DNA of 64,000 bases, from positions 2,542,001 through 2,606,000 of the forward strand of contig CP032931.1 of assembly GCA_003666485.1 (NCBI GenBank), given 5' to 3'. Below the pieces are notes generated by a model. The model was not told where the DNA came from and made no database searches. It saw only the letters and a list, made by a program, of their open reading frames with translations. This document shows, in pieces, positions 19,511 to 57,943 of this stretch (within the stretch, counting starts at the first letter, position 1; each line of letters opens with the position of its first letter). This DNA comes from Levilactobacillus brevis (lineage in GTDB: Bacteria > Bacillota > Bacilli > Lactobacillales > Lactobacillaceae). A program made the position numbers and the translations under genes.

Positions 19511-20010
19511 GCCTTACTGTCCGCAAAATATGGGCTGGAACGCGGTGGGCGGACGGGTCGAGCCAAAGATCGGTCTCGACGCCTCGCTTTGAGCCGAAGA
19601 CCACGTCTCAAAGGCGCCAGTTTCCTAAGCGACATGAACCGCGCCGCTAAGGAAACTCCCACGGCTGAGCCCATATTTTGCGGGCTCACGGCTACGGTAG
19701 TGATTGGTCGACAACGACTGACTGAAACTACAATCGATTCCACGACCGTACTGGCAACGTGGTCTAAATCTGTGTGAGTATCAGCCGCTACTTTGCCGGA
19801 AGCCACTAGGGATGGCGCCAGCTGTGATAACGATGTTTCCTGGCGTTTTTTGCCAGGTTACATCGTGGGGCGACTTCGGAGACTTGCGGGCTTGGCAAGG
19901 CTTCGAAGCGAGGTGGAAGCCCGCTTCCCAGGCTGGAGCCAGTCCCCATAGCAGGCAGAATCCCTGGTGGCTGCAGGCACTGGTTTAGGCAACTTTGCGG
20001 ACGGTAAGGC
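19511..20010. repeat. Composite intergenic repeat unit U1 (A half + B half, 500 bp)
   Basis: The ends are inverted: GCCTTACTGTCCGCAAA (19511-19527) against TTTGCGGACGGTAAGGC (19994-20010), one mismatch. An A-type half faces right (19511-19696), with the core GAGCCAAAG, then GGTCTCGACGCC and TTTGAGCCGAAGACC. A B-type half faces left (19820-20010), with GAAGCGAGGTGGAAGCCCGC. The unit lies between two convergent genes. Confidence 0.85.
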
Positions 20011-20040
20011 AACCAGTACCACCATTTATGACTAGCTAAG

Positions 20041-21663
20041 CTACTTCCAGTAAGCGTAGCGGTATTGGGCGGCGGTACTGAAGGTACTGTACTTGATGCC
20101 GCCGACTTTCTTGCTGACCAGGTTGACCTGTGCTTGCTGGTACAGTGGGTTGAAGACGCCCAATTGTGACAGCCGCTGGTTTGCCGTCTTCAGTAATGCG
20201 AAACGCTTCTTGGCGTTCGTTTCCGTTTGTGCCGCCAACATCAAGCGGTTGAATTTCTGATCGACGTAATTCGAGAAGTTGATGGAATTTCCCTTCATGA
20301 ACAGGTCCAGATCAGTTGTCGGGTCCGGTTCATCCCCGGTCCAGCCAAAGGTCGAGACGTCAAAGTTGCCCTTGAACATCTTGTTGATCTGTTGCGTCAG
20401 TGGCATTGAGGAGATCGTAACGGTCAGCCCCGGCATGTTCTTTTGCCATTGACTCTGGATGTACTCGGCCACGTTCTTGGAGCCGTCCGAATCGTTGGTC
20501 AACAGCGTCAGCTTGAAGTTGCCCCCGCCCAATTCTGCGCGGGCCTTCCGCCACAGCTTGCGGGCCTTGGCCGCGTTGTACGGCGTGTAGTTCCCCGTGC
20601 TGACCGCGAAGTCTTGCCCGTTGTTCGGATCCTTGGCCACACCCTGGGCGACCATATTCTTCAACGGTACCGACCCATCTTGATTGACCTTCGACGTCAG
20701 TTCCTGGCGATTGATGGCCAGACTGGCCGCCGTCCGGAAGTTTTGATTACCTCCTAATTTTGTATGCGTATTGAAGTACTGGATGGAAACGGCCGTGGTC
20801 AACGTCTTGCGCATCTGCTTCTTGAGTTGCGGATTGTTGGCGGTCCCGGTAACCGTGGTCCCGGCAATCTTGGTTTCTTGAACCTTCCCGGCAGCAAATA
20901 ACTTTTCAGCCGTCGAATCTGTCTTGACCACCTGCACGTTGACCCGGTTGATCTTCACTTGCTTCTTGCCGTAGTAGCGCTGATTCTTGACGTAGACCCA
21001 GTTGTCCTTGGTTCCGTTCCACTTCTTCAACACGTACGGACCGTTGGCCACGACGCGACTGGAATTGGTGCCGTACTTGGCGCCATATTTCTTTACCAAA
21101 TGACGGTTGACCGGCAAGAATTCTGTGGCCGCATCGTAGTTAAATGCTGGATCTTGGCGGCTTAGCGTGACCTGGAGCTTGTATTTGCCCAGTGCCTTGA
21201 CACCTAAGTCACTCGGCTGTTTCGTACCCTTTTGAATAGCTGCATAATTGGTAAATGTCGCAAATCGGTTGGCATACTGTGCTTTGGTCGTTGGATCGAC
21301 CTGGCGCCGGAACGACGTGACAAAGTCTTGGGCCGTGACCTGGTCGCCGTTACTCCAACGCGCATCGCGCCGTAGCGTAAAGGTATAAGTCTTCCCGTTG
21401 TTCGTGGGTTTGACGACTTTGGTTGCCATCGCCGGCACCACCTTACCGTCATTATTTTGCCGGTACAAGCCCTCCGTGGTCTGCTTCATCATGTAAAAAG
21501 AATACGCGTCGGTCGCCTTGTTGGGGTCGGCCGTTTGTAGTTCAGCCGGCATGGTCACGCTCAACGCTTTATTTTGCGTCGTCGCTGACTTGCCTGATTG
21601 ACAGCCCGCTAACGTGCCCACCACTAACAATCCTAATAATCCTAATCCCATTCGTTTATCCAT
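20041..21663 (-). CDS. Peptide ABC transporter substrate-binding lipoprotein, OppA family
   Basis: This is a 540-aa lipoprotein. The signal sequence ends in the lipobox LAGC (Cys20). The SBP_bac_5 fold follows, with YTFTLRRDARWSNGDQVTAQ near residues 90-110 and the family pattern FNYDAATEFLPVN. It binds oligopeptides outside the membrane for an ABC importer; no permease or ATPase gene is adjacent, so it must share one encoded elsewhere. GGAGGG precedes the ATG. The T-box leader upstream shows control by an amino acid's tRNA, so its cargo probably supplies that amino acid. Confidence 0.92.
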   Translation of the reverse strand: MDKRMGLGLLGLLVVGTLAGCQSGKSATTQNKALSVTMPAELQTADPNKATDAYSFYMMKQTTEGLYRQNNDGKVVPAMATKVVKPTNNGKTYTFTLRRDARWSNGDQVTAQDFVTSFRRQVDPTTKAQYANRFATFTNYAAIQKGTKQPSDLGVKALGKYKLQVTLSRQDPAFNYDAATEFLPVNRHLVKKYGAKYGTNSSRVVANGPYVLKKWNGTKDNWVYVKNQRYYGKKQVKINRVNVQVVKTDSTAEKLFAAGKVQETKIAGTTVTGTANNPQLKKQMRKTLTTAVSIQYFNTHTKLGGNQNFRTAASLAINRQELTSKVNQDGSVPLKNMVAQGVAKDPNNGQDFAVSTGNYTPYNAAKARKLWRKARAELGGGNFKLTLLTNDSDGSKNVAEYIQSQWQKNMPGLTVTISSMPLTQQINKMFKGNFDVSTFGWTGDEPDPTTDLDLFMKGNSINFSNYVDQKFNRLMLAAQTETNAKKRFALLKTANQRLSQLGVFNPLYQQAQVNLVSKKVGGIKYSTFSTAAQYRYAYWK

Positions 21664-21704
21664 CGAATCCCTCCAAACCTCAAAATGACAGTCAGTCAGC
21701 GAAT

Positions 21705-21998
21705 CGGGGTAAAAAAAGACGCCCTCAGCAGAATTTGACTTCTGCTAAGGGCGCTAAACACGCGGTACCACCTTATTTACGACAAAAAAACTGTCGTCGC
21801 TTCGCGGACTGCCGGGGCAATCCGTTTGCACGATAATGGGTGCCACCAACGCGGTTACGAGTTTCTTCACCGTTTCGCTCCGAAGTGATTTTCGATCAGT
21901 GGCCTGTCTCCCCTCACACCAAACGGGAGTCGCTAGTCAGGCCGACCCTGATCTAGTCGTCTTCATCAACGCAAATTATTCTGTTGCTTGCTAACTTG
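21705..21998 (-). promoter_or_regulatory. T-box leader of the OppA-family gene
   Basis: On the minus strand, AAGGTGGTACCGCG (21761-21774) is followed by a strong terminator, GCGCCC..TAGCAGAA / TTCTGCT..GGGCG plus a U-run (21714-21754). The leader starts after the promoter at 22005-22033. I could not assign the specifier codon safely. Confidence 0.88.
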
Positions 21999-22004
21999 TC
22001 CATA

Positions 22005-23444: not shown

Positions 23445-23570
23445 GGCACTCTTCCTCTCATAAATGTAAAATTGTCTAACGGTTTGAAAAACGAAAATCG
23501 ACTGTAACCATTGTTACCATGCACTTCATGGTGTTAAGATCAGTCGTTTACAGCTTCTTGGTGAGAACTG

Positions 23571-23930
23571 GCCGCCTGCCGTCCGCCAAATATGGGTCGG
23601 AACGCGGTGGGCGGACGGGTCGAGCCAAAGAGCGGTCTCGACACCTCGCCTTTGAGCCGAAGATCACGTCTCAAAGACGCCAGTTTCCTAAGCGACATGA
23701 ACCATGCCGTTTAGGAAACTCCCACGGCTGAACCCATATTTAGCGGACTCTCGGCTACAGAAATGCTTACCAACAATAATTGACTTGACCCTTAGTAACA
23801 GCTAGATCGTCAACTGTGTTGGCTGGAGTTTTATCTCAGCCTAAAGCGTGAGACGACTTAAAATTTTGGCAGTTTTTGCCAAGATTTTAAGCAAGCCTGA
23901 AGACCACACCCCATAGCAGGCGCCTGGTTC
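23571..23930. repeat. Composite intergenic repeat unit U2 (A half + diverged B half)
   Basis: The A-type half (23571-23758) has the conserved GAGCCAAAG, GAGCGGTCTCGACACCTCGC and CGTCTCAAAGACGCCAG segments. A diverged B-type half (23806-23930, leftward) keeps the hairpin AAATTTTGGCA / TGCCAAGATTT and GCAGGCGCC. The right outer terminus is not recognisable. It lies upstream of fumC and downstream of the AP2-like gene. Confidence 0.75.
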
Positions 23931-26712: not shown

Positions 26713-26741
26713 CCACTTGGCGGTTACCTAACACCGCGTCC

Positions 26742-26926
26742 GCCTTACCGTTCGCCAAATATGAGCCGGAACGCGGTGGGCGGCGGGACGAGCCAAAGTG
26801 CGGTCTCGTCTCCTCGACTTTGAGCCGAAGACCGCGTCTCAAAGTCGCCAGTTCCCTAACCGGCATGAACCACGCCGCTAAGGGAACTCCCACGGCTGAG
26901 CTCATATTTGGCGAACTATCGGCTAC
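26742..26926 (+). repeat. Single A-type half repeat (S3)
   Basis: It has a perfect 17-bp terminal stem, GTTCGCCAAATATGAGC (26750-26766) / GCTCATATTTGGCGAAC (26900-26916). Inner hairpins are GCGGTCT/AGACCGC and AGTTCCCT/AGGGAACT. It lies between convergent genes. Confidence 0.9.
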
Positions 26927-27060
26927 TATTGCGAATCGTCAATAAATAATCGTTACGCTAGTCAATCCGTTACCATTCAACAGCGGCACACTCAGTCCAG
27001 AGTTCACGCACATGTCCACCTGATATTCCGCACGATGGCAAGGAGGCCAGCAACATAAAA

Positions 27061-29586: not shown

Positions 29587-30031
29587 GTTGGGTCTTGCTG
29601 GTCGCCTTGCCGTTCACTAGATTTGGGCCGGAACGTTGTGACAGTCGTATCTTAGGCTTCACTTTGAACCGAAAATGCTCATCTCAAAGCTGTCATTTTG
29701 CTAGCGTTGTGATGCGCAAATTCAACAGTGATTGCCAATTCACTGTTTTTCAGTTGGCAGAACGTACTAATTGGAAATGTTCACTGTGGAAAACGTAATG
29801 AGCTGGTGAATGTTGCTGATAACAACCAACGTAGCCGAGAGTTCACCAAATATGAGTTCAGCCGTGGGAGTGCCCTTAGCGGCACGGTTCACGCCGGTTA
29901 GGGCACTGGCGATTTTGAGACGTGCTCTTCGGCTCAAAGTCGAGGAGACGAGACCGCCCTTTGGCTCGTCCCGCCGCCCACCGCGTTCCAGCTCATATTT
30001 GGCGAACGGCAGGCGGTCAGTAAGACCCAAC
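29587..30031. repeat. Composite intergenic repeat unit U4 (degraded A + A, 445 bp)
   Basis: The outer inverted ends begin GTTGGGTCTTGCTGGTCGCC on the left and, inverted, GTTGGGTCTTACTGACCGCC on the right. The left rightward half (29601-29710) is eroded. The leftward A half (29831-30016) is intact, with an AAATATGAG / CTCATATTT terminal stem. It lies between licD and the ppx operon. Confidence 0.82.
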
Positions 30032-43250: not shown

Positions 43251-43988
43251 TTACTTAACAGTAACAGTCTTCGTCACGGTCTTGTAGCCCGCCTTGGTTG
43301 CGGTGACCTTTAGCTTCCAGCTCTTCTTCACAGCCTTCTTCAGCTTGACCGTGTAAGCCTTCTTCTTGGTCGTGACCTTACCTAAGGTCTTCTTGTTGTG
43401 CTTGACCGTCACCTTGGCGCCCTTGGTCGCGGTCCCGCTTAACTTCTTGGCTTTGGCCTTGATCTTCTTGGTGCTCAAAGCAACCTTCTTGGCCTTAGCC
43501 TTGCTGGTGGCCTTTAAACTGCTAGTGTTAAATTTCAGGGTCGCAGATTCTTGCATCTTAATGGTTTGGCCGTTCATTGGGACTGCCAAACTAAATCCGA
43601 TGACTTGGTCCTTCTTCAAGTTAACGTTACTGAAGGTGTATGTATTGCCGCTTGCCGCCTTCGTTACTTGGGCGTCCTTGCCATTTAATGTCAGTGCTTG
43701 GATAAATTGGTTACCAGCAGTGGTGCCCTTAATGGTGACCGTTGCCTTCTTACTCTTCACGCTGACCGTTACCTTGCTGTTGAGGTATTGGGCCGCTTCA
43801 GAAGCCGTCGTGGTCCCGGTCTTGTAGACGTTGAAGTTGATGCTGTACTTACCATTAGCCAATTTAGCTGCGTTCAAAGCAGCCGCTTGCGCCGTCGACG
43901 TTGGGGTAACGACTTGATTCAGGGAAATACCGGCACCCGCACTAGTCAGCATTAATAAAACACTCATCACAGTTAAAGATTTTTTCAT
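43251..43988 (-). CDS. Secreted NEAT-domain protein with lysine-rich Ig-like tail
   Basis: This is a 245-aa exported protein. The signal peptide ends at TAQA (about residue 35). One NEAT-like domain (residues 40-155: NGKYSINFNVYKTGTTTASE, GNTYTFSNVNLKKDQVIGFS) is followed by a very basic Ig-like module (about 80 residues, about one third Lys). It has no LPxTG or membrane anchor; the basic tail may hold it on teichoic acids. It would act as a soluble or wall-bound haemophore feeding the downstream NEAT/ABC system. GGAGG 8 nt before the ATG at 43988 sets the start. It has its own promoter and terminator. Confidence 0.82.
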   Translation of the reverse strand: MKKSLTVMSVLLMLTSAGAGISLNQVVTPTSTAQAAALNAAKLANGKYSINFNVYKTGTTTASEAAQYLNSKVTVSVKSKKATVTIKGTTAGNQFIQALTLNGKDAQVTKAASGNTYTFSNVNLKKDQVIGFSLAVPMNGQTIKMQESATLKFNTSSLKATSKAKAKKVALSTKKIKAKAKKLSGTATKGAKVTVKHNKKTLGKVTTKKKAYTVKLKKAVKKSWKLKVTATKAGYKTVTKTVTVK

Positions 43989-44075
43989 AAAATGTCCCTC
44001 CAAAACAAAAAATGTGTGTATTAATGAATCCGTTTTCATAGTAGCACGATTACTAGTTGAGTACCACAATTTTGT

Positions 44076-44099
44076 AACCAATTTAACTAACAATTGGTT
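44076..44099. promoter_or_regulatory. Inverted repeat AACCAATT-N8-AATTGGTT (candidate operator)
   Basis: Perfect 8-bp arms about 90 bp upstream of the NEAT/Ig-like gene. The half-site recurs upstream of the NEAT/ABC operon. Confidence 0.55.
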
Positions 44100-44227
44100 T
44101 ATATACTGATAGATGACTGTCCGCTAATGCCATGAAAAAAGCCCCAACGACGGCATTTACCGCGTTAGAGCTTTCACAGTTTTTGTTAGCGTTATCGGGT
44201 CAGTTGGGTTTGACCATTAACTATCGA

Positions 44228-44536
44228 CTACCCAATGTGATTTTCATGTAAAATCGCTGCCACTTCTTCTTGCATTTCCGGCGTGCGTTTCCACTCCTGA
44301 AATTCGGTGAAGTCTTCTTCAGGCATCGTGTAATTCTCATTGACATAGTCCTCGTACGCCTGCACGTGCGGCGTGTGGGCAATGTTGAGCTGGAGGATGC
44401 GGACCTGCTTGATCAGCTTCCGTTCGACCGCCAACTCCGCCCGGCCGTTTTGGACCATGTCACTGATTTCCATGTACTTGCTCCCATCGAGGCGTGTAAT
44501 TTCCTCGATCAATGTAAATGTCTCATGACTTTTCAT
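44228..44536 (-). CDS. Small acidic cytoplasmic protein, function unknown
   Basis: This 102-aa protein (MKSHETFTLIEEITRLDGSK and onward) is helical and acidic with no membrane segment. The ATG at 44536 follows GGAGGTGA. The promoter 130 bp upstream overlaps a CcpA cre site, so expression should fall when a preferred sugar is present. I do not recognise the family. Confidence 0.72.
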   Translation of the reverse strand: MKSHETFTLIEEITRLDGSKYMEISDMVQNGRAELAVERKLIKQVRILQLNIAHTPHVQAYEDYVNENYTMPEEDFTEFQEWKRTPEMQEEVAAILHENHIG

Positions 44537-44673
44537 CACAATCACCTCCACACAATATTTCTATTATACCGTGATTTTGGGCAAAACAAAACCACTACCA
44601 GGGAATGGCAGTGGTCGGCATAAGAGAGAAAGAGAATTGATTAGAAGGTAATTATTAATACCTTACGAGATAT

Positions 44674-44703
44674 AATATACCGGTTTTTGTAAGCGCTGTC
44701 AAT
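44674..44703 (-). promoter_or_regulatory. Promoter with overlapping cre site
   Basis: On the minus strand: -35 TTGACA (44698-44703), 17-bp spacer, -10 TATATT (44674-44679). TGACAGCGCTTACA (44688-44701) matches the CcpA cre consensus and covers the -35 box, which fits repression of the 102-aa gene. Confidence 0.72.
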
Positions 44704-44831
44704 GCTTTTCAAAAAATAGTTGGTAATTTTCACTATTTTTTTGTGACATGGCCATGGGGCTTGATGATTTGTGGGCCGTAGTTGCCGATTGGCGGGGCTT
44801 TCCACGTTCACCCACGCATCCACCACATTTC

Positions 44832-44875
44832 CTAAATAAAAAAGAAACAGCCACCTGCGCAGCCGTCTCTTCCGT
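44832..44875 (-). terminator. Hairpin terminator on the minus strand
   Basis: On the minus strand AGAGACGGC pairs with GCTGTTTCT (two G-U pairs) and is followed by TTTTTTATTT. No gene was found directly upstream of it, so it may end a short untranslated RNA or an old transcript. Confidence 0.5.
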
Positions 44876-44986
44876 TAATTTCACGATTTACTTACCTAAA
44901 AGTTGCAAGTACAAAAACACCTGATAATACTCAGCTGACAAGGATTTGTGAACACTAAATTAGTCCACACCGCCATCTGCGGCTGT

Positions 44987-45022
44987 CAGAGATTACCCGC
45001 CAAATTTGCAGGGAAATCTCTG
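44987..45022. repeat. Hairpin in the intergenic gap
   Basis: CAGAGATT and CCC pair with GGG and AATCTCTG around a 12-nt loop. It lies between the terminator at 44832 and the repeat at 45063. Confidence 0.55.
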
Positions 45023-45062
45023 AAATGGCAACGTTCATCCACACTAGTGGGTAACCTGTCAC

Positions 45063-45240
45063 GTAGCCGAGAGTGAGCTAAATTTGGACTCAGCCGTGGG
45101 AGTTTTCAAGTGACCTGCTTGGAAACTGGCGTCTTCGAGACGTGATTTTCGGCTCGAAGCGAGGTTGAAGACCGACTTTTGGCTTCGACCGGTCCTTCCC
45201 ACAGCGTCACGGTCCAAATTTGGCGAACGGTAAGGCGACC
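45063..45240 (-). repeat. Single A-type half repeat, leftward (S10)
   Basis: The terminal stem pairs TAAATTTGGAC with GTCCAAATTTG, a sequence different from other copies but still paired. The core (CGAAGCGAGG, TTCGAGACG) is conserved. Confidence 0.85.
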
Positions 45241-45330
45241 AGCACCGATCACATGACATTCAAAGACTACTTTTGTCCTTGTGGTATCACCATAAATCTG
45301 GCTACTTTCGAGCTTGCAACCTTTAATTAC

Positions 45331-46062
45331 TTATCCCTGATTGCGGGCAACCACGATCAGCATCATTGGCCGCCGCAACTCGTCGCGCATGCCAGGTAGG
45401 TCCAGCATGGACACCGGTGGCTGCGGCTCGACGACGTGCTCTAGTACAAAGCCCCGTTGTAGGAGCGTCTCCAAGTAAGTCGTCAATGTCCGGTGGTATT
45501 TACGAACTGGTGTATCAAGAAACTCCGTCGTCCGTTCGCCTTCCTCAAAGTACCGGTCGACCGGAAAATCTTGAATCTGCCCTTGACTGTCACGGTGCCA
45601 CTGCTCGCTACCAGCTGCCGTGAAGACGGGATGCTCCACGGAAAAGATAAATTGCCCGTTCGGTTTCAGGTAGCGCGCCACTTGTTCGACGACCGCAGCA
45701 AAGTCTGGTACGTAGTGCAGGGCCAGCGAGCTAAGTACCGTCTCATACTGATCAGCCGGTAAGTCTAACTTGGTCAGGTCGCCTCGCTGATAGGTGATGA
45801 CCGGACTCGTCGTCTTTTGCCGGGCCACGGCCAGCATCTTTTCAGAAATATCGATGCCCAGTACGGACCGTGCGCCGTGTTCCGCCGCATAACGGGCGTG
45901 CCAACCATAGCCACAGCCCAGGTCCAGCACGTCTTGATTCGTGAAGTCTGGCAAGAGTGGTGCTAGTGTCGCCCACTCCCCGGCTCCGGCTAAGCCCTGT
46001 TGGCTCCGCGGCATTTGTTGGTAGCGTTCAAAAAATTTTTCATTGTCATAAATTGCTGTCAT
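45331..46062 (-). CDS. Class I SAM-dependent methyltransferase
   Basis: This 243-aa enzyme has the SAM-binding motif VLDLGCGYGWHARYAAEHGA (near residues 50-69), an acidic motif II (VLGIDISEKML) and motif IV (LSSLALHYVPDF). It belongs to the UbiE/Methyltransf_11 type; the substrate cannot be told from sequence. The ATG at 46062 follows GGAGG. It stands alone between a repeat and tagH. Confidence 0.9.
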   Translation of the reverse strand: MTAIYDNEKFFERYQQMPRSQQGLAGAGEWATLAPLLPDFTNQDVLDLGCGYGWHARYAAEHGARSVLGIDISEKMLAVARQKTTSPVITYQRGDLTKLDLPADQYETVLSSLALHYVPDFAAVVEQVARYLKPNGQFIFSVEHPVFTAAGSEQWHRDSQGQIQDFPVDRYFEEGERTTEFLDTPVRKYHRTLTTYLETLLQRGFVLEHVVEPQPPVSMLDLPGMRDELRRPMMLIVVARNQG

Positions 46063-46388
46063 GATTTTTCCTCCATGTGAATTGACTAAGCGCAACAAGT
46101 CACATGGCCCAATACCCGCTTATATGCAATCATGAGACCACCCCTAACGTTTTGGATTGGCCCCAGTATAGCAACTTCTGACAATTCTGACAATTTAAAA
46201 CCAACATCGCGGTCGAAAGACAAAAAAAGAGGCCGGATTGCTCCAGCCCCACCATTTAGTTTCCACCAAATGAGAGATAAACCTTTATTCAATTCATTGG
46301 GAAATTAAATAAAGGGGTAAATAAATGGTAACTTAAAGATACCACGATAAATGATAAAAATCTATCCATTTTATTACCGTGTTCTAAT
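46063..46388. other. Intergenic gap between methyltransferase and tagH
   Basis: 326 bp with no credible frame. An inverted repeat CCTTTATT (46282-46289) / AATAAAGG (46308-46315) lies near the end of tagH and may be its terminator, although the U-run is poor. Confidence 0.4.
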
Positions 46389-47474
46389 TTATTTAACGTT
46401 AGTTGTCTTGTTCTGGTCGTGCAGTACTGTTTCGGGGTGCACGATGTTACTTGGATGCTCGATGACCTCACCCAGCGAATGCCCAGAAATATTGACCAGG
46501 CAGGCCACCACAAAGACGATGGCCACGGCACTGGTCAGTAACCGGTTGCCCCAGCTCATCTTTTCGCTGATGACCGACCCATAGAAATCTTTCTTGACCT
46601 CAGCCGCTACGTTGCGATCCGTTGGCGCCGCCGCTTGGCGTTCCTCGGTGACCTGCTTTTGGTAAGCGTCGATGTCAAACGACTTCTGGTTGGTCTTCAT
46701 TTGGCGTTGGAAGTGCTTTTTTTCCTTCTTGGTCTGGCCCTTGAACCACTTGGTGAATTCGCGGTAATGCTTGACCACGTCCTTGGTGGCGCCAAGTTCT
46801 TTCAGCGTACCGTAGTGGATCCAAGCAACCCGGTCACACAAGATTTCCACTTGCTTTAAGGAGTGACTGACGAAGACGATGGTCTTGCCCTCATCCTTGA
46901 ATTCAGAAATCTTGTCCACACATTTTTGGTAGAAAGTATCATCCCCGACGGACAGCGCTTCATCAATGATGAGGATATCCGGGTTGACGTGCACGGCGAT
47001 GGAGAACCCTAGCCGGGACTTCATCCCTGAGGAGTAACTCTTGACTGGTTGGTACAAGAAATCACCAATATCAGCAAACGACACGATGTCGTCCATCAAC
47101 GCATCGATCTCGGGATTGGTCAGCCCCTGCATCAAGGCCTTCAACCGGATGTTTTCCAATCCAGTCAGGTTGCCCCGCAGTCCAGCCCCAATCGCAATGA
47201 TCGAGGTATCGCCGCGAACATCGACCGTCCCCGTCGTTTGGGGAATGATGCCGGAAATGATGTTGGACAAGGTGGACTTTCCAGAGCCGTTGACCCCGAT
47301 CAAGCCCAGCGTTTCGCCCGGCTTCACTTCCAGGGAAATGCCCATCAGTGACCAGAAGTGCGGCACCGTTGAGTTGCGCAGCGAGAAGAACGACCGCAGC
47401 TTTTCAGCCTGGCTCTTGTAAAGATCGTATTCCTTCGTAACGTGTTGTACCTTAATTTTGTAAGAATTATCCAT
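46389..47474 (-). CDS. tagH: Teichoic acid export ATPase TagH
   Basis: This is a 361-aa ABC ATPase. Walker A is GVNGSGKST, the signature YSSGMKSRLGFS (the TagH-type variant), and Walker B ILIIDEALSVGDD. The C-terminal part (residues 250-361) has a charged linker and one membrane helix (LLTSAVAIVFVVACLVNI) with an extracytoplasmic tail. With TagG it moves wall teichoic acid across the membrane. No tagG gene is adjacent here, which is unusual, since the two are usually an operon. Confidence 0.92.
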   Translation of the reverse strand: MDNSYKIKVQHVTKEYDLYKSQAEKLRSFFSLRNSTVPHFWSLMGISLEVKPGETLGLIGVNGSGKSTLSNIISGIIPQTTGTVDVRGDTSIIAIGAGLRGNLTGLENIRLKALMQGLTNPEIDALMDDIVSFADIGDFLYQPVKSYSSGMKSRLGFSIAVHVNPDILIIDEALSVGDDTFYQKCVDKISEFKDEGKTIVFVSHSLKQVEILCDRVAWIHYGTLKELGATKDVVKHYREFTKWFKGQTKKEKKHFQRQMKTNQKSFDIDAYQKQVTEERQAAAPTDRNVAAEVKKDFYGSVISEKMSWGNRLLTSAVAIVFVVACLVNISGHSLGEVIEHPSNIVHPETVLHDQNKTTNVK

Positions 47475-47544
47475 GAATTAAACTTCCTAACTCAGTTTTT
47501 GCGTTACCTACGCGCCCGTAAATGGACCGGGCTCAGTCTGTTGT

Positions 47545-47553
47545 ATTATACCA
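47545..47553 (-). promoter_or_regulatory. Extended -10 promoter of tagH
   Basis: On the minus strand TGGTATAAT, a consensus extended -10 (TGnTATAAT), lies about 70 bp before the tagH start. Confidence 0.6.
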
Positions 47554-47625
47554 AAAAATACTGCCTTGTGGGTAGTTTACGATGAGCTTTAGAACTTTAT
47601 TAAAGGACCGAGGTACAAAAAACAA

Positions 47626-47652
47626 AAGTTCCAGCCATGACGGCTAGAACTT
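47626..47652 (-). terminator. Terminator after the GH73 gene
   Basis: AAGTTCCAGCC (47626-47636) / GGCTAGAACTT (47642-47652), one mismatch. On the minus strand it is followed by TTGTTTTTT. Confidence 0.8.
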
Positions 47653-47665
47653 CCAGTGAATTGAC

Positions 47666-49105
47666 TTAAGCTAATGCGCGTGAATCGACCCAGTAATTGG
47701 TCTTATCGCCGTTGAATTTGAACCGGTACCACGTTGTGCCATAAGTCGTTTTGACGCCCTTATAGTTCACGGTAACCTTGGTCCCCTTCTTGACCCCCTT
47801 CGGCCAATCAAAGGTCTGCTGGTCGAAGTGCGTCTTCTTCACGTGATTGTACAAATGATACTTGCTGTACTTGGCACTCAACCTCTTGGTACCACTGGCA
47901 TTGGCATAGGTCACGTAATCATACTGTGGGCTGGCCGCCGCTTCGTTGGCCGCGATCCAGTACTTCTTATCGCCGACCTTGATGCGGTACCAGGTCGTTT
48001 TGATGCCATCCTGGGTGCGAACGGCTTGATTGTCCGCCGTATAGGACTTGGCGGTCAGTGCCTTTAACTTGCCCATCGACTTGGCCAAGTAGGGTGAATT
48101 GTACACGTGGTTGTAGTAATACCCACTCAATGCACTGTTGACCTTCACCTTTGCTGTTCCTTTGCTGTAGGTCACCTTTGGCAACGTCAATGCCTTACTG
48201 TAGAGCCAGTATCGCTTTGCGGAGGCGCCATTGCTAAAGGTAATGCGGTACCACGTGGTCTTGTTGCCATTCTTAGTGGTTTTCACGCCCCGCATGTTCA
48301 AATAGACCTGTACGTCTTGGCCGGCCTTCACTTTCTTCCAAGCCGTCTTGGTAATGTCAGCTCGCGTGCCCTTCACGTGATTGTACAGCCGATAGCTGGT
48401 GTACTTACTGTTCAACCGCGCTGTTTGCCCGCCAGCCGCGCCGTAATACTTGGCCGTCGCGTACGTCGGTTCTGGGGTGGTATCCGTTGAAGACTCGCTG
48501 GACGAACTACTGCTAGATGACGAAGAACTACTTGCGCTCCCGTCCAACAACGTGTTCAGACCATACGTCTTAATGATGGAAATCAAGCTGGATCCATACG
48601 TCGGTGCCGTCGCATAAGTATTGGTCAAGGCATTGGCCGCATCGCTGTAAGTCGCCGCGTTTTCCCGCCACGTCCCACTATAGAGTGTGGGATTGTAGCT
48701 GGTACCACCGCGCAAAAGCGTTGCGTTGTCGGTCATTGAAGCCTTGGCACTTGGATATTTTCGGAAATTGGCGTTCGTGTAATACAGTTGGCCATCACTG
48801 TCGTACTCGGCCGTTTGCATCGTCACGGACTGCCCGTTATAACTGCCTTTGATTCCAAAATAATTGTTAGCCGTCGTGGTCAGCGTACTGGTTCCCCAGG
48901 CACTTTCCAACGCCGCCTGCGCCATCATGACGGACGGGTACAATTTATACTGGTTCGCCACCGAGGTGACGGGACTTTTCAACGTTGAAATGAAAGATTG
49001 AGGATCGGTAGTCGCCGCATGACCCGTTCCCTTACTCATGGTGAGACCGCCGAGACCCACGCCGACAATCAGCGTGGCCAGCAGCCATCTTTTTGTTCGT
49101 TTCAT
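47666..49105 (-). CDS. Secreted endo-beta-N-acetylglucosaminidase (GH73) with GW modules
   Basis: This is a 479-aa cell-wall hydrolase. It has a signal peptide (to about residue 31), a GH73 glucosaminidase domain (residues 36-190, catalytic Glu in QAALESAWGTS, then YFGIKGSYNG), a Ser-rich linker and three GW/SH3-like modules ending in YWxxxxAL-type repeats. GW modules bind lipoteichoic acid or wall polymers. It would cut the glycan backbone and help daughter-cell separation. Length and order fit lactobacillar autolysins. Confidence 0.92.
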   Translation of the reverse strand: MKRTKRWLLATLIVGVGLGGLTMSKGTGHAATTDPQSFISTLKSPVTSVANQYKLYPSVMMAQAALESAWGTSTLTTTANNYFGIKGSYNGQSVTMQTAEYDSDGQLYYTNANFRKYPSAKASMTDNATLLRGGTSYNPTLYSGTWRENAATYSDAANALTNTYATAPTYGSSLISIIKTYGLNTLLDGSASSSSSSSSSSSSESSTDTTPEPTYATAKYYGAAGGQTARLNSKYTSYRLYNHVKGTRADITKTAWKKVKAGQDVQVYLNMRGVKTTKNGNKTTWYRITFSNGASAKRYWLYSKALTLPKVTYSKGTAKVKVNSALSGYYYNHVYNSPYLAKSMGKLKALTAKSYTADNQAVRTQDGIKTTWYRIKVGDKKYWIAANEAAASPQYDYVTYANASGTKRLSAKYSKYHLYNHVKKTHFDQQTFDWPKGVKKGTKVTVNYKGVKTTYGTTWYRFKFNGDKTNYWVDSRALA

Positions 49106-49207
49106 CTTACCGGTTTCCCCCTTAAAATCGTTTCCAAGTCAAGAATACCATATCTCGACCGGGTGCAGAAAGGGGAATTTAAGAGAAAACGCCTTTGACA
49201 CAAAGAC

Positions 49208-49930
49208 TTAATCTAACTGACTTGCAGCGGCTTCATCCAAAATCACGGTCACGTTCGGATGAGTCTGCAAATAGCTGGCCGGCACGTCTGGCGTGACTGG
49301 ACCTTGAATCATGGCTGCCACTGCGGCTGCCTTGGCTTCACCGTAGGCCACAATCAGAATCTGCTTGGCTTTCAGAATGGATCCAATACCCATGGAGTAA
49401 GCGTAACGGGGTACTTTATCGGCGTTGGTAAAGAAACGGGCATTGGCGTCAATCGTTGATTCTGTCAGCGTCACCTTGTGCGTCGTGGATTCGGGATCCG
49501 TGCCGGGTTCGTTGAAGCCAATGTGCCCGTTCTTACCTAAGCCCAACAGTTGGAGATCAATCGGGTTGTCCGCGATAATTTGGTCGTATTCGCTGGTAGC
49601 GGCCGCTGCGTCTAAGTTAGACCCATCTGGCACGTAGGAATGCGCAAATGGCTTGGCGTTAAATAAGTGTTGTTGCATGAAGTAGTGGTAGCTTTGGGGA
49701 TGATCCGCATTCAGCCCCACGTATTCGTCCAGGTTGACCGACGTTAACTGACTGAAGTCCAAATCGCTGGCCACGAGTTGTCCATAAATCGTGACTGGCG
49801 TGCTCCCAGTGGCCAAGCCTAGAACCTTCGCATCATTTTGTAAGGCATCTTCAAAGACTTTGAACCCCGCTTTGCCGCCTGCTTGCTTGTCACTGACAAT
49901 TTGTACATTCATATTTGTTAATTGTTCCAT
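49208..49930 (-). CDS. nagB: Glucosamine-6-phosphate deaminase
   Basis: This 240-aa enzyme turns glucosamine-6-phosphate into fructose-6-phosphate and ammonia. [12 protein letters not shown] lies near residue 42, [20 protein letters not shown] holds the catalytic Asp, and [18 protein letters not shown] is the NagB signature. The start chosen is the ATG at 49930 with GGGAG upstream; an ATG six codons later is also used in homologues. NagR-like operators lie upstream. It opposes GlmS, encoded 1 kb away. Confidence 0.95.
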
Positions 49931-49950
49931 ATCATTCAGTCTCCCTCTCT

Positions 49951-49989
49951 TAATGGTATAGCCCAATTATAAATGCTCTAGACCAGTTT
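49951..49989. promoter_or_regulatory. Two NagR (GntR)-type operators upstream of nagB
   Basis: AATGGTATAGCCCAATT (about 49952-49968) and ATGCTCTAGACCAGTT (about 49972-49987) resemble the palindromic ANTGGTNTAGACCANT sites of NagR/YvoA regulators. Confidence 0.65.
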
Positions 49990-50060
49990 TTCAAGCTTTT
50001 TGCTCAGGAGTTTGGTAAATTTTCTGTAAACAAAAAGGGCGACCGCCAATGGCTATCGTC

Positions 50061-50183
50061 CTACTTCCGCCGGATTCCCCGTCGGTTCGCGCTTAAATCG
50101 TTTTGCTGCTTACGGAATTTTTCAAAGGTCGCATCCCGTTGCTTCTGGTTCTTGTGACTATCGACTCGCTTCGTATACTTCAT
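50061..50183 (-). CDS. Small basic protein (40 aa), function unknown
   Basis: The protein is MKYTKRVDSHKNQKQRDATF and onward, with a basic end (NRRGIRRK). GGAGGTG 8 nt before the ATG at 50183 strongly supports translation. No family is recognised. It sits alone between nagB and a repeat unit. Confidence 0.6.
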   Translation of the reverse strand: MKYTKRVDSHKNQKQRDATFEKFRKQQNDLSANRRGIRRK

Positions 50184-50307
50184 GGTCTGCACCTCCGTTC
50201 CTCGTTTAGATGATTTGCAATTACTATACAACTAAACCTAAATTTAGGCAAGGAAAACACTTGATCTGTGTCGAACAAAGTCGGTTGTTGGGCAACTCAT
50301 TTTGAAG

Positions 50308-50799
50308 GCCGCCTTACCGTTCGTCTATTGTCCAAGCCAGTCGCCTACGGCTGCCAGGGGTTCCGCCTGCTCTGGGGAACGGCTACAGCCAAAGAGCGGG
50401 CTTCCACCTCGCTTCAAAGCCTCGCAAGGTCCGCGAGTCTCTGAAGTCGTCCTACCCAGTAACCTGGCACAAGACGCCAGCTAACTGGGTCGACACAGCT
50501 GGCTCCACCCCTGGCCTCCTCCGGCAGATTGATTAGGTCAAGTCAACTGACATTGGGTCGGCAACAATGCAATCACCAATTGACCAAAACCAGATACATT
50601 GACAACCACCAGTGTAGCCGAGAGTTCGGCTAATATGAGCTCAGCCGTGGGAGTTCCCTTAGCGGTGGGCTTTACCGGTTAGGGAACTGGCGTCTTTGAG
50701 ACGTGGTCTTCGGCTCAAAGCGAGGTGTCGAGACCGCTCTGTGGCTCGACCCGTCCGCCCACCGCGTTCCAGCTCATATTGGCCGAACGGTAAGGCGGC
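50308..50799. repeat. Composite intergenic repeat unit U11 (B + A, 492 bp)
   Basis: Perfect 16-bp inverted ends: GCCGCCTTACCGTTCG (50308-50323) and CGAACGGTAAGGCGGC (50784-50799). The rightward half is B-type, with its own GCCAGGGG (50353-50360) / CCCCTGGC (50508-50515) stem. The leftward half is A-type (50614-50799). It lies between the 40-aa gene and glmS. Confidence 0.9.
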
Positions 50800-50820
50800 A
50801 AACTATGCCTACATAGTTGC

Positions 50821-50872
50821 AAAAAACGGCCACCTCTCAGTTTGACCTGAGACGTGACCGCTTCGTTTTGTT
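50821..50872 (-). terminator. Terminator after glmS
   Basis: On the minus strand the stem CGGTCAC..TCTCAG / CTGAGA..GTGGCCG is followed by TTTTTT. Confidence 0.82.
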
Positions 50873-50884
50873 TTAAGTTAAACC

Positions 50885-52702
50885 CTATTCAACAGTGACA
50901 CTCTTAGCCAAGTTCCGTGGCTTGTCGACATCCAGGCCCTTGTTCAGGCTGGTGTAGTAAGCCAACAGTTGGGCAGGCACGACACTCAGCAATGGCATCA
51001 ACATTTCGTCAACGTCTGGCAAGATCAGGTCGTCGCCGTCAACGGCTAAGCCTTCACGCACGATGGTCAAGGTCTTGGCCCCACGTGCCATGGTTTCTTG
51101 CAAGTTGCTGCGCGTCAAACCGGCCGTCTTCGCCTGGGTGATGAAGCCGATAACCGGCGTACCATCTTCAATCAAGGCAATCGTCCCGTGCTTCAATTCA
51201 CCTGAAGCGAATCCTTCACATTGGATGTAAGAGATTTCCTTCAGCTTCAAAGCGGCTTCCAAGGAAACGGCGTGGTCGAGTCCCCGACCGATGTAGAAGG
51301 CCCGGTTGGTCTTCATCAAGTAGTCGTTGGAGATCTTTTCCAGCTTATCTTTTTCGTCGACGATGGCTTGCATCCCTGTTGCCACCAAACCTAATTGTTG
51401 ACGAACGTTAAAGTTTTGGGCAATGATTTGTCCCGTCACTTCACCCAACGCCTTGGCCAAGATGGCTTCGAGCGCAATTTGGGCAGTGTACGCCTTGGTT
51501 GAGGCCACGGCGATTTCAGGACCGGCATGCAGTAACAGCGTGTAAGTGGCTTCACGAGACAACGTGGAGTTTTGCACGTTGGTGATCGTCAGGCTTGGGT
51601 AACCCGCGTCGTTGACGTTGACCAAGACTTCACGGCTATCGGCCGTTTCCCCTGATTGCGTCAGGAAAATGAAGAATGGTTTGTCAGCCAACATCGGTTG
51701 TTCGTAGGCAAATTCGGAAGACACGTGGACTTCCGTTGGGATGTGGGCCAGATTTTCAAACAGGCGCTTCCCAATCAAGCCGGCGTGATAACTGGTCCCG
51801 GCACCGACGATGTAAAGCCGGTCAGCGGCTTGCATTGCCTTCAACAACTTGTCATCAATTTCGGGCTCGCCGTGTTCTGACAGGTAAGTTTGGGCTAATT
51901 TCCGCATCACGTTAGGTTGTTCGTCGACTTCCTTCAACATGTAGAATGGGTAAGTCCCCTTGTCTGCTTCGTCAGGGTTCATGTCGACGTGGAAGGTCTT
52001 ACGTTCAACGGGTTGGCCGTTGGCGTCTTGGATAGCGACCTTGTCAGGCGTGATGGTCACGACTTCGCCGTCCATCAATTCTAAGAAGTCGTGCGTTTGC
52101 CGCAACATAGCCAAAGCATCGGAGCAGACCACGTTGAAGCCGTCACCGACCCCAATCAACAGTGGGCTCTTGTTCTTGGCAACGAATAACGTATCTGGTT
52201 GATCGCGGTCCATCATCAAGAAGGCGTAAGAAGACCCCTTCAACAGGCTCAGCGTCTTCAAGAAGGCTTGCTTAGCGTCTAAATTGTCTTCAACGGCAAA
52301 TTTGTCGATCAATTGCACAACGACTTCCGTATCCGTTTGGCTTCTGAACGGCACGTCACTCAAGTACTGCGCCTTTAATTCTTGGAAGTTGTCGATCACA
52401 CCATTGTGGACCAAGTAGAACCGGTTGTCATTTGAAAAATGTGGGTGCGCATTGTCCACGCTAACGACCCCATGCGTGGCCCAACGCGTGTGCCCAATCC
52501 CCGTGGAACCGTGAACGTCAGGCGTAATCTTTGCCCGTAATTGCGAAATCCGGCCCTTGGTCTTAACCAAGTAGTCCTGACCCTTTTGGTCGTTAACGTA
52601 AATACCGGCTGAATCGTAACCCCGGTATTCCAATTTTTGCAAACCGTCAACTAAAATCTTAACGGCGTTGTCGTTCCCCGTAACACCAACAATTCCACAC
52701 AT
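50885..52702 (-). CDS. glmS: Glutamine-fructose-6-phosphate aminotransferase
   Basis: This 605-aa enzyme makes glucosamine-6-phosphate from fructose-6-phosphate and glutamine, the entry to peptidoglycan precursors. The N-terminal glutaminase starts MCGIVGVTGN with the nucleophile Cys2. Two SIS sugar-isomerase domains follow (YIVGAGTSYHAGLIGKRLFE, FLTQSGETADSREVLV), and the C-terminus KPRNLAKSVTVE is the standard end. GGAAG precedes the ATG. No glmS ribozyme is visible in the leader; a NagR-like site is present instead. Confidence 0.97.
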   Translation of the reverse strand: MCGIVGVTGNDNAVKILVDGLQKLEYRGYDSAGIYVNDQKGQDYLVKTKGRISQLRAKITPDVHGSTGIGHTRWATHGVVSVDNAHPHFSNDNRFYLVHNGVIDNFQELKAQYLSDVPFRSQTDTEVVVQLIDKFAVEDNLDAKQAFLKTLSLLKGSSYAFLMMDRDQPDTLFVAKNKSPLLIGVGDGFNVVCSDALAMLRQTHDFLELMDGEVVTITPDKVAIQDANGQPVERKTFHVDMNPDEADKGTYPFYMLKEVDEQPNVMRKLAQTYLSEHGEPEIDDKLLKAMQAADRLYIVGAGTSYHAGLIGKRLFENLAHIPTEVHVSSEFAYEQPMLADKPFFIFLTQSGETADSREVLVNVNDAGYPSLTITNVQNSTLSREATYTLLLHAGPEIAVASTKAYTAQIALEAILAKALGEVTGQIIAQNFNVRQQLGLVATGMQAIVDEKDKLEKISNDYLMKTNRAFYIGRGLDHAVSLEAALKLKEISYIQCEGFASGELKHGTIALIEDGTPVIGFITQAKTAGLTRSNLQETMARGAKTLTIVREGLAVDGDDLILPDVDEMLMPLLSVVPAQLLAYYTSLNKGLDVDKPRNLAKSVTVE

Positions 52703-55410: not shown

Positions 55411-56258
55411 TAACGCCGCCCCCCTCTAAACCGTTGATCGAACCAGTCCAACGCCTTTAGAAACACGTTGTTGGTCTCTGTGGCCTCATCGTTGACCAGT
55501 TCATTGCGCAAGAACTTCAGGTAATCCGTCTGCGTCAACCCGCGCAACAGCTCGTTGTTCTTGGTGATGGAGACTTCCCCGGTTTCTTCGGAAATGACGA
55601 TGGTCAAAGCATCGGTGACTTCGGAAATGCCGACGGCCGCCCGGTGCCGCGTCCCCAATTCTTTGGGAATCAGATTACTTTCGGACAACGGCAGATAGGC
55701 CGCGGCGACGGCGATGCGGTTGTCCCGGATGATGACGGCGCCATCGTGCAACGGGGTATTGGGAATGAAGATATTGATCAGCAATTCACCAGTCAATTCC
55801 GCATCCAAATCAATCCCCGTTTCAATGTAGTCCTCCAATCCGGTATCGCGCTGAATCGTCATCAACGCCCCGATTCGCCGTTTGGACATGTACTGGATAG
55901 CCTTATCCAGGCCCTCGATCATCTTATTGGCCGCCTCATTTTCATGACGGACCCGGACGAACAAAGACCCCCGGCCGAGGTGCTCCAACCCCCGCCGAAT
56001 TTCTGGTTGAAAAACAATAATGATGGCAATAACGCCCCAGTTGATCACTTGGTCGACCAGCCACGACACCGTGTTCAGTCCCATGTAGGCACTGACAAAG
56101 CGGACGATCAGAATTAAAATGACACCCCGGAACAGCTGAATTGCCTTAGTCCCGCGTAGCATCACGATTAATTCATAGATGACGAACCACACCACAAGAA
56201 TGTCGAGAACGTTGACCAGATTGCCGATAGTTAGGAGATTTCCCCAATCCAGGTTCAT
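55410..56258 (-). CDS. cdaA: Diadenylate cyclase CdaA
   Basis: This 282-aa enzyme makes cyclic di-AMP from two ATP. Three N-terminal membrane helices (residues 15-90) are followed by the DAC domain with the catalytic DGAVIIRDNRIAVAAAYLPL and LGTRHRAAVGISE motifs (both DGA and RHR kept). c-di-AMP controls potassium, osmolytes and cell-wall balance. It is the first gene of the operon; the upstream gap holds its promoter. Confidence 0.96.
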   Translation of the reverse strand: MNLDWGNLLTIGNLVNVLDILVVWFVIYELIVMLRGTKAIQLFRGVILILIVRFVSAYMGLNTVSWLVDQVINWGVIAIIIVFQPEIRRGLEHLGRGSLFVRVRHENEAANKMIEGLDKAIQYMSKRRIGALMTIQRDTGLEDYIETGIDLDAELTGELLINIFIPNTPLHDGAVIIRDNRIAVAAAYLPLSESNLIPKELGTRHRAAVGISEVTDALTIVISEETGEVSITKNNELLRGLTQTDYLKFLRNELVNDEATETNNVFLKALDWFDQRFRGGRR

Positions 56259-56496
56259 GACTTTCCCTCCAAATTGAATTCAAATTTCATTATAGCACGG
56301 CGCCGCTGACATTTCGCCCCGATTCCGCTTGATTCGGCGAAAGTCCCCGTGTCAGCCGTAAAAACTTACAGATTCCTTAAAGTGAACGATTGTCATTATT
56401 TATCTGCTAATAATCTGCTAAGATAGAAGTCATATTCTGTTCGTTTCTGACAGAGACGCTGTAAAATAAAGGTAGTAGCTTGTGAAAGGATTGGTG

Positions 56497-57156
56497 ATGG
56501 TAATGAAACGGCGAGCAAAGTGGGAAATCCGCGTATTCTTTGTGGCGTGGCTCGTTTTTCTCTTTTTCCGTGCCAAGGATCCCTTCTCCTTCTTAGTGCT
56601 CAACACCTTTCTAGGGGCCATCCCCATTGAATTGAGCTTTCACCTGGGCAGCAAACACCCTCGCGGCTGGCTCTTTTGGCCGCTGGTGATCTTGTGGTTG
56701 CTCTTCTATCCCAACGCGCCCTACCTGTTAACGGACTTGTTCCACTTGTCGCTCCTGCAGCCATACGCCGTGAGTGGCCTGTTGCGGGTCACGCCGCACT
56801 TGTGGATCTACTTCACCTACATGATCATCAGCGCCATCAGCTGCTCGTTTTTGGGCTTCTGGAGCCTCAATCACGTCAGCCAGGCTATCACTCACCGCTT
56901 GGCGAAGGATAATGGCATTGCCCACCTGTTCGTCGTGCTGGTGCTCACCTTCTTGACGTCGGTGGGCCTGTACATCGGCCGTTTTCTCCGCATTCACACG
57001 GTCTATCTCTTCCTCAATCCCGAGCAGTTCATCCGCCCGTTGATGGACATGTGGACCACGAACATGTGGGTCTTCGTGGGCTTGATGACGCTGATTCAGC
57101 TGTTCTGTTACTGGATCTTGTACCTGATCATGGACAATCGCGAAGTAACCGACTAA
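56497..57156 (+). CDS. DUF1361 family membrane protein
   Basis: This 219-aa protein has six predicted membrane helices. The DUF1361 pattern is clear in LLFYPNAPYLLTDLFHLSLL and SVGLYIGRFLRIHTVYLFLN. The function of the family is unknown. The ATG at 56497 has AAAGGA 6 nt upstream; earlier GTG codons in frame lack a site. It is divergent from cdaA and ends in its own terminator. Confidence 0.88.
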   Translation: MVMKRRAKWEIRVFFVAWLVFLFFRAKDPFSFLVLNTFLGAIPIELSFHLGSKHPRGWLFWPLVILWLLFYPNAPYLLTDLFHLSLLQPYAVSGLLRVTPHLWIYFTYMIISAISCSFLGFWSLNHVSQAITHRLAKDNGIAHLFVVLVLTFLTSVGLYIGRFLRIHTVYLFLNPEQFIRPLMDMWTTNMWVFVGLMTLIQLFCYWILYLIMDNREVTD

Positions 57157-57185
57157 CACCTGAGACATTTGAAAATGACTTACCC

Positions 57186-57220
57186 AGTTGCGGGCCATCA
57201 CTGATGGGCCGCAACTTTTT
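57186..57220 (+). terminator. Terminator after the DUF1361 gene
   Basis: AGTTGCGG (57186-57193) / CCGCAACT (57209-57216), with an inner GCCATCA/TGGGC pairing and TTTTT after it. Confidence 0.88.
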
Positions 57221-57237
57221 GATTGGTGGACGCATTA

Positions 57238-57943
57238 TTGCCGCCTCCATCCGCCAAATATGGGTCGTGACGCGGTGGGCGGACGGGGCTACACAATCAA
57301 GCTGTCCACCGCACAACCTCCGGCTGCCAGGGGTTCCGCCTGCTATGGGGGACACCTCCAGCCAAAGAGCGGGCTTCCGGTTCGCTTGAAAGCCTGGCAA
57401 AATCGCCAGTCTCTCAAGTCGCCCCACGCTGTAGGCTGAGAAGAAACCTCAGCCAACACCGTCGACACAGCTGGCTCCACCCCTGGCCTCCTCCGGAACT
57501 CTTGTGTATCGAGACAACTTTGTCGCGTCCAAACTCCTCAGTTACCCATGTGATGGTATCTGATTGATTATCCAATCCCAATCTTACACAACCAATTTAC
57601 CATGGTTTACGCCAGCGCATTCCCATTGTGCCGCTCACGTTCTTAGTTTGCGCCATTAACTAACATCCCCGCTACTCTTACTAACGAAATCCAACCTGAT
57701 TTTGTCACCCTTTTTCGGTGGTTGGGTCGGTTGCCTTACTAATGGAATTAGTCATTTTCCGTATCAACGATGCTGCTAAACATTTATTCTAGTGAAAAAC
57801 CACCCATCACCTGTGACCGCTAGTGCTTTCGGTAGTAACGCAGGTTTCTCGGCTCGAAGCGAGGTTGAAGACCGCTCTGTGGCTTCGACTGGCCCTTCCC
57901 ACAGCGTCACGGCCTAAATTTGACGAACGGTAAGGCAGCCAGT
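57238..57943. repeat. Composite intergenic repeat unit U12 (A/B chimera + truncated A)
   Basis: It starts like an A half (CCGCCTCCATCCGCCAAATA, to 57288) and then switches to a B half (57310-57497, TGCCAGGGGTTCCGCCTGCT and CACCCCTGGCC). The right part (57845-57943, leftward) is a truncated A half ending CGAACGGTAAGGCAGCC. About 350 bp of other DNA separates them. It lies between convergent genes. Confidence 0.8.

Follow-up and report, generated by a model that had tools for sequence, protein, structure and literature searches.

Prokaryotic miniature inverted-repeat transposable elements (MITEs), of which QMITE2 of Coxiella is an example (PMC10969869), carry no genes, lie between genes, end in terminal inverted repeats (TIRs) flanked by target duplications of 7–9 bp, and are predicted to give transcripts that fold. 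A family of dispersed repeats in Levilactobacillus brevis has the same properties. It was encountered in a stretch of 64,000 nucleotides (assembly GCA_003666485.1, contig CP032931.1, positions 2,542,001 to 2,606,000 of the forward strand), which as a whole will be called the window and to which positions refer unless another locus is named. The family is distinguished by its body, composed of two homologous multibranched units placed head to head, whose pairings covary; for the MITEs treated in PMC10969869, mFold predictions are given. The main text of that review contains no word starting with Lactobac or IS4. MRSC-65-2, one of the mobile/repeat sequence candidates presented in PMC11109978, is likewise a covarying structure with dozens of copies per genome and is suspected of being a selfish element, but it is a single long stem, while the units considered here (called halves) consist of hairpins within a closing stem, occur in pairs, and are associated with TIRs and an insertion sequence (IS).

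The element is a MITE whose twin structured body is unusual and conserved, and the literature searched, which took in few subscription papers or preprints and not ISfinder, yielded no description of it. REPINs, with their RAYT partners, depend on a tyrosine (Y1) transposase and leave no target duplication, and BOX and RUP of Streptococcus pneumoniae differ from the present element in layout and ends. The present element is much larger than a REPIN and has a DDE-type partner and target duplications, the last two of which led to the rejection of a giant REPIN. There are also resemblances: REP doublets and REPINs (PMC3116915) likewise pair inverted structured units across a spacer, in high copy number and between genes, and BOX and RUP (PMC3049150) are likewise small, structured, intergenic repeats for which movement in trans is assumed.

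The repeats in the window are probably aged members of a Lactobacillaceae MITE family that is moved in trans by an IS4-family transposase akin to that of ISPepr1. The preliminary description of the window took units of about 495 bp, bounded by inverted ends of 16 bp, to be whole elements. Both parts of that picture proved mistaken: the 495 bp are the inner core, and the ends of intact relatives lie some 60–100 bp further out. Ten intact copies of 627–640 bp, found in related Levilactobacillus, carry the TIR CTRAAGGTTGAAAG at both ends. In L. angrenensis and L. suantsaiihabitans a conserved arm extends outward from the half designated A and ends in CTTTCAACCTTCAG, and the side of the other half, B, finishes with the same end. 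The majority consensus of the ten copies, 639 bp in length, is made up of arm E with its TIR (98 bp), half A (183 bp), a spacer (95 bp), half B (199 bp) and arm F with its TIR (64 bp). Beyond the 16-bp ends, the flanks of 50 units are no more complementary than those of shuffled partners (mean 6.44 against 6.39).

TIRs separated by 380–800 bp form 26 pairs in 162 sequences, namely 44 pieces of the L. brevis genome and 118 loci (107 from relatives and 11 of 20 fetched with the covariance model R1 described below; L168–L242 were left out). A duplication matching in at least 7 of 8 bases flanks 8 of the 26, where shuffled flanks gave a mean of 0.38 and a maximum of 4. Examples are GAAGTTAA, TTATTTCA and ATGATTTA, with TTAAATAA from the L. 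brevis genome outside the window, and a few further pairs have 7-bp repeats, as judged by eye. The TIR recurs with perfect 8-bp duplications in Lactiplantibacillus, at L245 (549 bp, with both halves) and L251 (414 bp, with a single half). That genus, g38, is identified through G155 and G331, which share coordinates with Lactiplantibacillus contigs matched by the half-A hairpin. A MITE-like nature had been one of the options offered at the outset, and it is backed by the TIRs, by duplications of 7–8 bp and by an IS with matching ends; that the element is a non-autonomous transposable element, and a mobile one, is well supported. The number of TIRs with at most one mismatch is 2 + 2 in the L. 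brevis genome, as against 49 + 52 and 40 + 46 in G003 and G026, the two species that carry young copies. No TIR pair was found at U1, U7 or U11, the regular units of the window, and a scan for ends with a loose pattern gave only noise. Locus L214 of L. suantsaiihabitans contains a TIR-like pair spanning only 134 bp (16762–16895; two mismatches in each), which may be a minimal MITE belonging to this IS or a product of chance.

The IS with matching ends is complete in genome G014 of the genus (L235, 1348–2906). It measures 1559 bp, has perfect 14-bp TIRs (CTAAAGGTTGAAAG) identical to those of the MITE and an 8-bp target duplication (CTGATTAA), and encodes a transposase of 450 aa that scores 470 bits against NF049925 (IS4 family, cut-off 250) and matches Pfam DDE_5 and DDE_Tnp_1. 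The residues Y-R-E-K can be recognized in the protein by eye (YARRWQIEGYFKVAK), the spacing of the IS4 signature being Y2R3E6K. Members of the ISPepr1 subgroup of IS4, according to Table 1 of PMC2266710, measure 1500–1600 bp, have ends reading YT-AA-YTT---A and make duplications of 7–8 bp. The L235 IS agrees with the table in size, duplication and seven of the eight stated end letters, and it likewise has a 5'-CT end, the Y-R-E-K residues and an AT-rich 8-bp duplication; it disagrees at position 7, where it has G and the table has Y (PMC2266710). From the shared ends and the duplications I infer that a transposase of this kind moves the MITE in trans. R1 detects no half-like structure in the L235 IS. 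In L. mulengensis, several contigs break off within a related IS that carries the same TIR at its end. A search with a piece of the transposase gave matches in 10 of the 35 genus genomes, the L. brevis genome not among them. The family profile finds in the latter a frame fragment of 113 aa (E 1.5e-11), and none of seven genomes passes the profile's cut-off. A different IS, with a frame of 440 aa, occurs at 14 places with identical scores in the L. brevis genome (G000 contig C1, e.g., 55991–56446) and is weakly related to IS4_4 (24.7 bits).

Within the window, U1, U7 and U11 lie where the preliminary description had placed them. They match one another and half units by blastn, which finds about ten further aligned places, and the loci align across entire halves. 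The strand listed here for each feature is the one reading outward from the spacer, on which the fold favors G-U pairs. R1 refers to a covariance model built from 20 A halves, whose E-values are rough.

19510–19702, minus: U1 left half, type A (nhmmer 176 bits; R1 182 bits)
19796–19990, plus: U1 right half, type B (117 bits; member of B alignment A2)
23482–23575, minus: remnant of outer arm E at U2 (matches positions 1–94 of the E profile)
23575–23763, minus: U2 half, type A (profile search; R1 174 bits)
23809–23923, plus: U2 decayed B half, a fragment (34 bits)
26741–26931, minus: half A with a decayed partner (profile search)
29603–29705, minus: decayed A half, a fragment, partner of the next (37 bits)
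29825–30013, plus: half A (profile search)
34776–34957, minus: half A (profile search; R1 165 bits)
37847–38040, minus: U7 left half, type A (profile search; R1 172 bits)
38146–38330, plus: U7 right half, of diverged A type (profile search; R1 137.5 bits)
42999–43107, minus: partial A half (profile search; R1 66 bits over 43003–43179)
44896–45326, no strand: TIR-bounded element of 431 bp (two mismatches in each TIR; duplication TTACTTAC/TTACTTAT, 7 of 8)
45061–45237, plus: A-type half within the 431-bp element (profile search; R1 165 bits)
50329–50524, minus: U11 left half, type B (profile search)
50607–50797, plus: U11 right half, type A (profile search; R1 185.5 bits)
57247–57290, minus: U12 A fragment (21 bits)
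57316–57496, minus: U12 half, type B (138 bits)
57844–57936, plus: U12 partial A half (64 bits; R1 29 bits over 57761–57930)

Of four places first regarded as single halves, the one at 45063 sits in the 431-bp element and the one at 26742 precedes, by eye, an apparent decayed right end. The view that no copy encodes a credible protein stands, the longest stop-to-stop frames being 115 aa (U1), 122 aa (U7) and 75 aa (U11).

Iterated profile searches of the 44 L. brevis pieces (214.5 kb) and the 107 loci from relatives, two of which (L158 and L166) duplicate parts of L125 and L068, found 388 halves or fragments, with 245 assigned to type A and 143 to type B. The two types appear homologous, as the B profile picks up A halves upon iteration. 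Neighboring halves face inward, as originally noted: inward-facing neighbors are separated by less than 450 bp in 113 of 125 cases (39 AB, 41 BA, 25 AA and 8 BB), while the 39 outward-facing neighbors are never that close, the nearest being 683 bp apart. The earlier layout has to be amended to recognize two half types, with a spacer of 75–99 bp in 48 of 80 A/B pairs. The motifs CAACAAT and TTGACC, said to be frequent in spacers, are both present in those of U2, U7 and U11 and absent from those of U1 and U12. Of 37 spacers in the L. brevis genome, 6 contain the first and 9 the second (shuffled 0.6 and 2.0), and of the spacers in all 113 pairs, 7 and 14 do (shuffled 2.9 and 7.4); the motifs are enriched in the L. 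brevis genome, yet confined to a minority of its spacers.

Allowing up to three mismatches, a hairpin pattern from half A matches 123 and 134 sites on the two strands of the 3.1-Mb genome, counts that may overlap since the pattern is nearly palindromic, and the reversed pattern matches none; the family is therefore far beyond chance. The preliminary description had called for a covariance-model search of other genomes, and R1 found the family in 33 of 35 genomes of the genus (E ≤ 1e-5; up to 79 matches scored per genome) and, in the Lactobacillaceae, in 85 of 301 genomes and 11 of 40 genera (up to 9 matches scored per genome). In the order, 17 of 295 genomes gave matches. Five of these lie outside the Lactobacillaceae, in another family, and their single weak matches (E 1e-7 to 6e-7) are taken as chance. 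The exact hairpin gives a patchy distribution (14 of 35 genomes in the genus and 14 of 397 in the family), which is misleading in view of the counts from R1; among the matches listed for the hairpin are Levilactobacillus species, one 'Lactobacillus sp.' and two Lactiplantibacillus. Ten of the 20 loci fetched with R1, 19 of them from outside the genus, contain a pair on outward strands with gaps of 1 to 714 bp, one has two matches on the same strand, and nine have one match. At least one TIR-like site (at most two mismatches, within 600 bp outside the halves) accompanies 7 of the 20, compared to one site anywhere in the shuffled set. Rfam has no family that matches the halves, whether the window is searched at the gathering score, positions 37000–52000 at E ≤ 5, or ten further loci at E ≤ 0.5, and collections of plasmids and phages queried with U11 (blastn, distant setting) gave no match. 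Neither an Rfam match nor a failure of the loci to align beyond short motifs, the outcomes named beforehand as refuting, thus occurred. Structures of this size, whose signature hairpin is present at more than 100 places in one genome and which have relatives in 11 of 40 sampled genera, match no Rfam family. They also call for caution in annotating intergenic regions of Levilactobacillus.

Each half folds into a closing stem that encloses hairpins, a multibranched structure of roughly 150–200 nt. The evidence comes from full-length halves of the L. brevis genome scoring above 100 bits. In 66 A halves (alignment A1), 97.6% of 2695 pair cells are standard, compared to 87.5% in shuffled alignments, and both partners have changed at 26 of 41 pairs, compared to 14.6, a number reached in none of 500 shuffles. 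In 16 B halves (A2) the corresponding values are 98.6% against 90.1%, and 22 of 60 pairs against 12.9. A wider alignment, A4, which takes 51 matches from the window plus 26 other loci, gives 93.5% pairing against 65.1% and double changes at 45 of 48 pairs against 36.0. Sliding the partners by 1–3 columns lowers pairing to 31–47%. At the site around 29817 (half 29825–30013), the gap is also occupied by an A half in four other genomes, whose closing stems P1 differ in sequence from the window's and are each paired. The body of this transposon, which is non-coding, is thus held to one fold despite large sequence change, an indication that something under selection can travel in a MITE. The letters of the loops are also conserved across genera. 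Hairpin H1 or H2 is missing in some relatives, as judged by eye, and at L165 (1214–1572) the arms appear to have been lost differently in the two halves, the left retaining H1 and H3 and the right H3 and H2.

The structured RNA pair named among the original options is borne out as a pair of covarying folds; that it acts as RNA is a separate and less certain matter. Pairs predicted from both strands have G-U to A-C ratios of 48:14 in A (31 pairs) and 18:4 in B (57 pairs), so that A and B alike favor the strand reading outward from the spacer. Pairs predicted from the outward strand alone give 247:23 and 54:4, respectively. Since each half occupies a different strand of the element, their shared outward sense is easier to read as RNA than as one folded strand of DNA. 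How the whole might work can be sketched as follows. An IS4-type transposase would act on the MITE in trans, and the halves would act as RNA when transcription reads through the element. With a head-to-head layout, a transcript entering from either side would make the far half, the one at its exit, in the favored sense, and that half could allow the element to sit harmlessly in 3' untranslated regions, perhaps by way of transcript stability or read-through. The chances that the halves work at the RNA level at all seem about even, a level of confidence lowered by the absence of the wobble bias in A halves on opposite-strand pairs (given below). The specific role, harmless insertion in 3' regions through effects on stability or read-through, is offered tentatively. 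More doubtful is the extension that the twin halves represent a new class of large structured RNA whose own function is under selection, spread by a transposon to more than 100 copies per genome, serving as a symmetric device that gives one working copy at the exit whichever side transcription enters from, bound by a protein through its conserved hairpin loops, and kept after the transposon died. In any case the family provides a ready system for testing the effects of large folded segments in 3' untranslated regions.

Several results weigh against the interpretation just given. As to mobility, 18 of the 26 TIR pairs lack a duplication of 7 of 8 bases in register. No intact transposase of the L235 kind was found in the L. 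brevis genome, only a fragment, and none was found in G026 (L. suantsaiihabitans) despite its many intact ends, although draft sequences may hide IS copies. Arm E exceeds the 95th percentile of controls at 7 of 66 A halves of the L. brevis genome and arm F at 0 of 19 B halves, and these copies could derive from a form without full outer arms. As to the fold and its strand, the number of additional pair types in B halves does not rise above shuffles (71 of 500). The counts from A4 lean toward the model because that alignment was fitted to its structure. The wobble bias depends on the set of pairs: those predicted from the opposite strand give 52:58 in A (38 pairs) and 18:12 in B (58 pairs). As to transcription, the spacers have no clear excess of promoters, with strong scores in 4 of 106 tests compared to about 2 in shuffles (53 spacers in both directions, mononucleotide shuffles; mean scores slightly above the shuffles). 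As to a local role, in 5 of 6 comparisons (halves above 80 bits, six of ten sites) a half resembles a paralogue from its own species more closely than it does the orthologue at the same site, the exception being U7, for the window's half. Gene conversion or replacement could therefore preserve folds without a local role.

The explanations that compete with a role as RNA all retain the identity of the element as a MITE. One is that the structures act as DNA, where a cruciform or the folding of a single strand would aid excision, target capture or binding by the transposase, with no part for RNA. The joint occurrence of halves and the same TIR in two genera is what selection for mobility would lead one to expect, and small hairpin-dependent elements such as REPINs are known. 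Nonetheless, the bias in the common set has the same sense in each half, though the halves lie on opposite strands of the element, which a single folded strand of the whole element would not produce; the bias is weak on other pair sets. IS4-family transposases, moreover, bind double-stranded ends. A role as DNA alone is rather unlikely.

The condition of the copies bears on another explanation, that they are neutral debris of a MITE, having no role, whose fold came down from active copies and was propagated by gene conversion. In the L. brevis genome the halves are about 82% identical to the intact consensus (.818 and.819), and the outer arms are at background level (.595 and.590, compared to.573 and.583 in controls), the tails retaining faint similarity to the first bases of E. 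Two pairs of units match at 92.5% and 91.6% across about 475 bp and not beyond, in agreement with conversion of the core. At one place in that genome (about 1208247–1208881) a unit is flanked on both sides by what appear to be older pieces of B halves, with the outer end of B repeated, which looks like nesting or conversion. Ten other genomes have the gene that abuts U1. Halves adjoin it in G003, G030, G015, G017 and G006; G026 has a remnant there, and G033, G001, G025 and G034 have no half. At the sites of U7, 26742 and 29817, L. angrenensis has short fused outer ends, seen by eye, which imply loss of units by internal deletion. Sequence turnover at fixed sites, seen in the closeness of paralogues in 5 of 6 comparisons, and the deletion remnants are as expected of debris. 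Against it, pairing stands at 97.6% standard in the 66 A halves, although no intact transposase was found in that genome and only 2 + 2 TIR matches, and neutral decay should have opened the stems as it eroded the arms. I consider debris without any role unlikely.

The setting of the units among genes speaks to a third explanation, a bidirectional terminator in which each half would stop transcription leaving the element. Considering units with open reading frames (ORFs) within 600 bp on both sides, as called by a simple ORF caller, 62 of 173 lie between convergent genes, 99 between tandem genes and 12 between divergent genes, compared to 66, 191 and 62 of 319 element-free spacers. The scarcity between divergent genes and the frequency between convergent ones fit a terminator, as does a terminator-like site inside the unit at 24 of 213 gene ends facing one, according to a simple terminator finder of my own making. 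Those gene ends, however, keep terminators of their own, before the unit (59 of 213) or beyond it (42 of 213); for comparison, 85 of 282 other gene ends have an intrinsic terminator. When the unit lies within 60 bp of the stop codon, the terminator is beyond it in 20 of 75 cases and before it in 1 of 75, from which it follows that a unit close to a stop codon should lie within the transcript. The A half at 26741–26931 is flanked, by eye, by a stop codon on one side and, on the other, by a terminator-like hairpin common to relatives. The consensus of 78 tails from the L. brevis genome has no U-run. Termination is thus an improbable function. About equally improbable is that each half is a small RNA gene, domesticated by the host, with its own promoter in the spacer. 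The conservation of loop letters across genera and the retention of halves while arms fell to background would suit it, whereas promoter-like scores are strong in only 4 of 106 tests, against about 2 in shuffles, and the spacers of the L. brevis genome diverge in sequence. Finally, a chromosome-organizing element similar to BIMEs, the last of the original options, offering a site for gyrase or a nucleoid protein, would account for many intergenic copies that avoid divergent spacers, but compensatory changes indicate a folded strand over a duplex binding site and leave this explanation very improbable indeed.

In Lactiplantibacillus nangangensis (L095, 6134–6643), a pair of halves follows a T-box-like leader, recognized by eye, and precedes an ileS-like ORF, and so is in a 5' leader, not a 3' region. 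In the window, an ORF of 540 aa (20041–21663) abuts U1 with its 3' end, and upstream of it, on the minus strand, is a T-box leader (21744–21978; Rfam RF00230, 103.6 bits).

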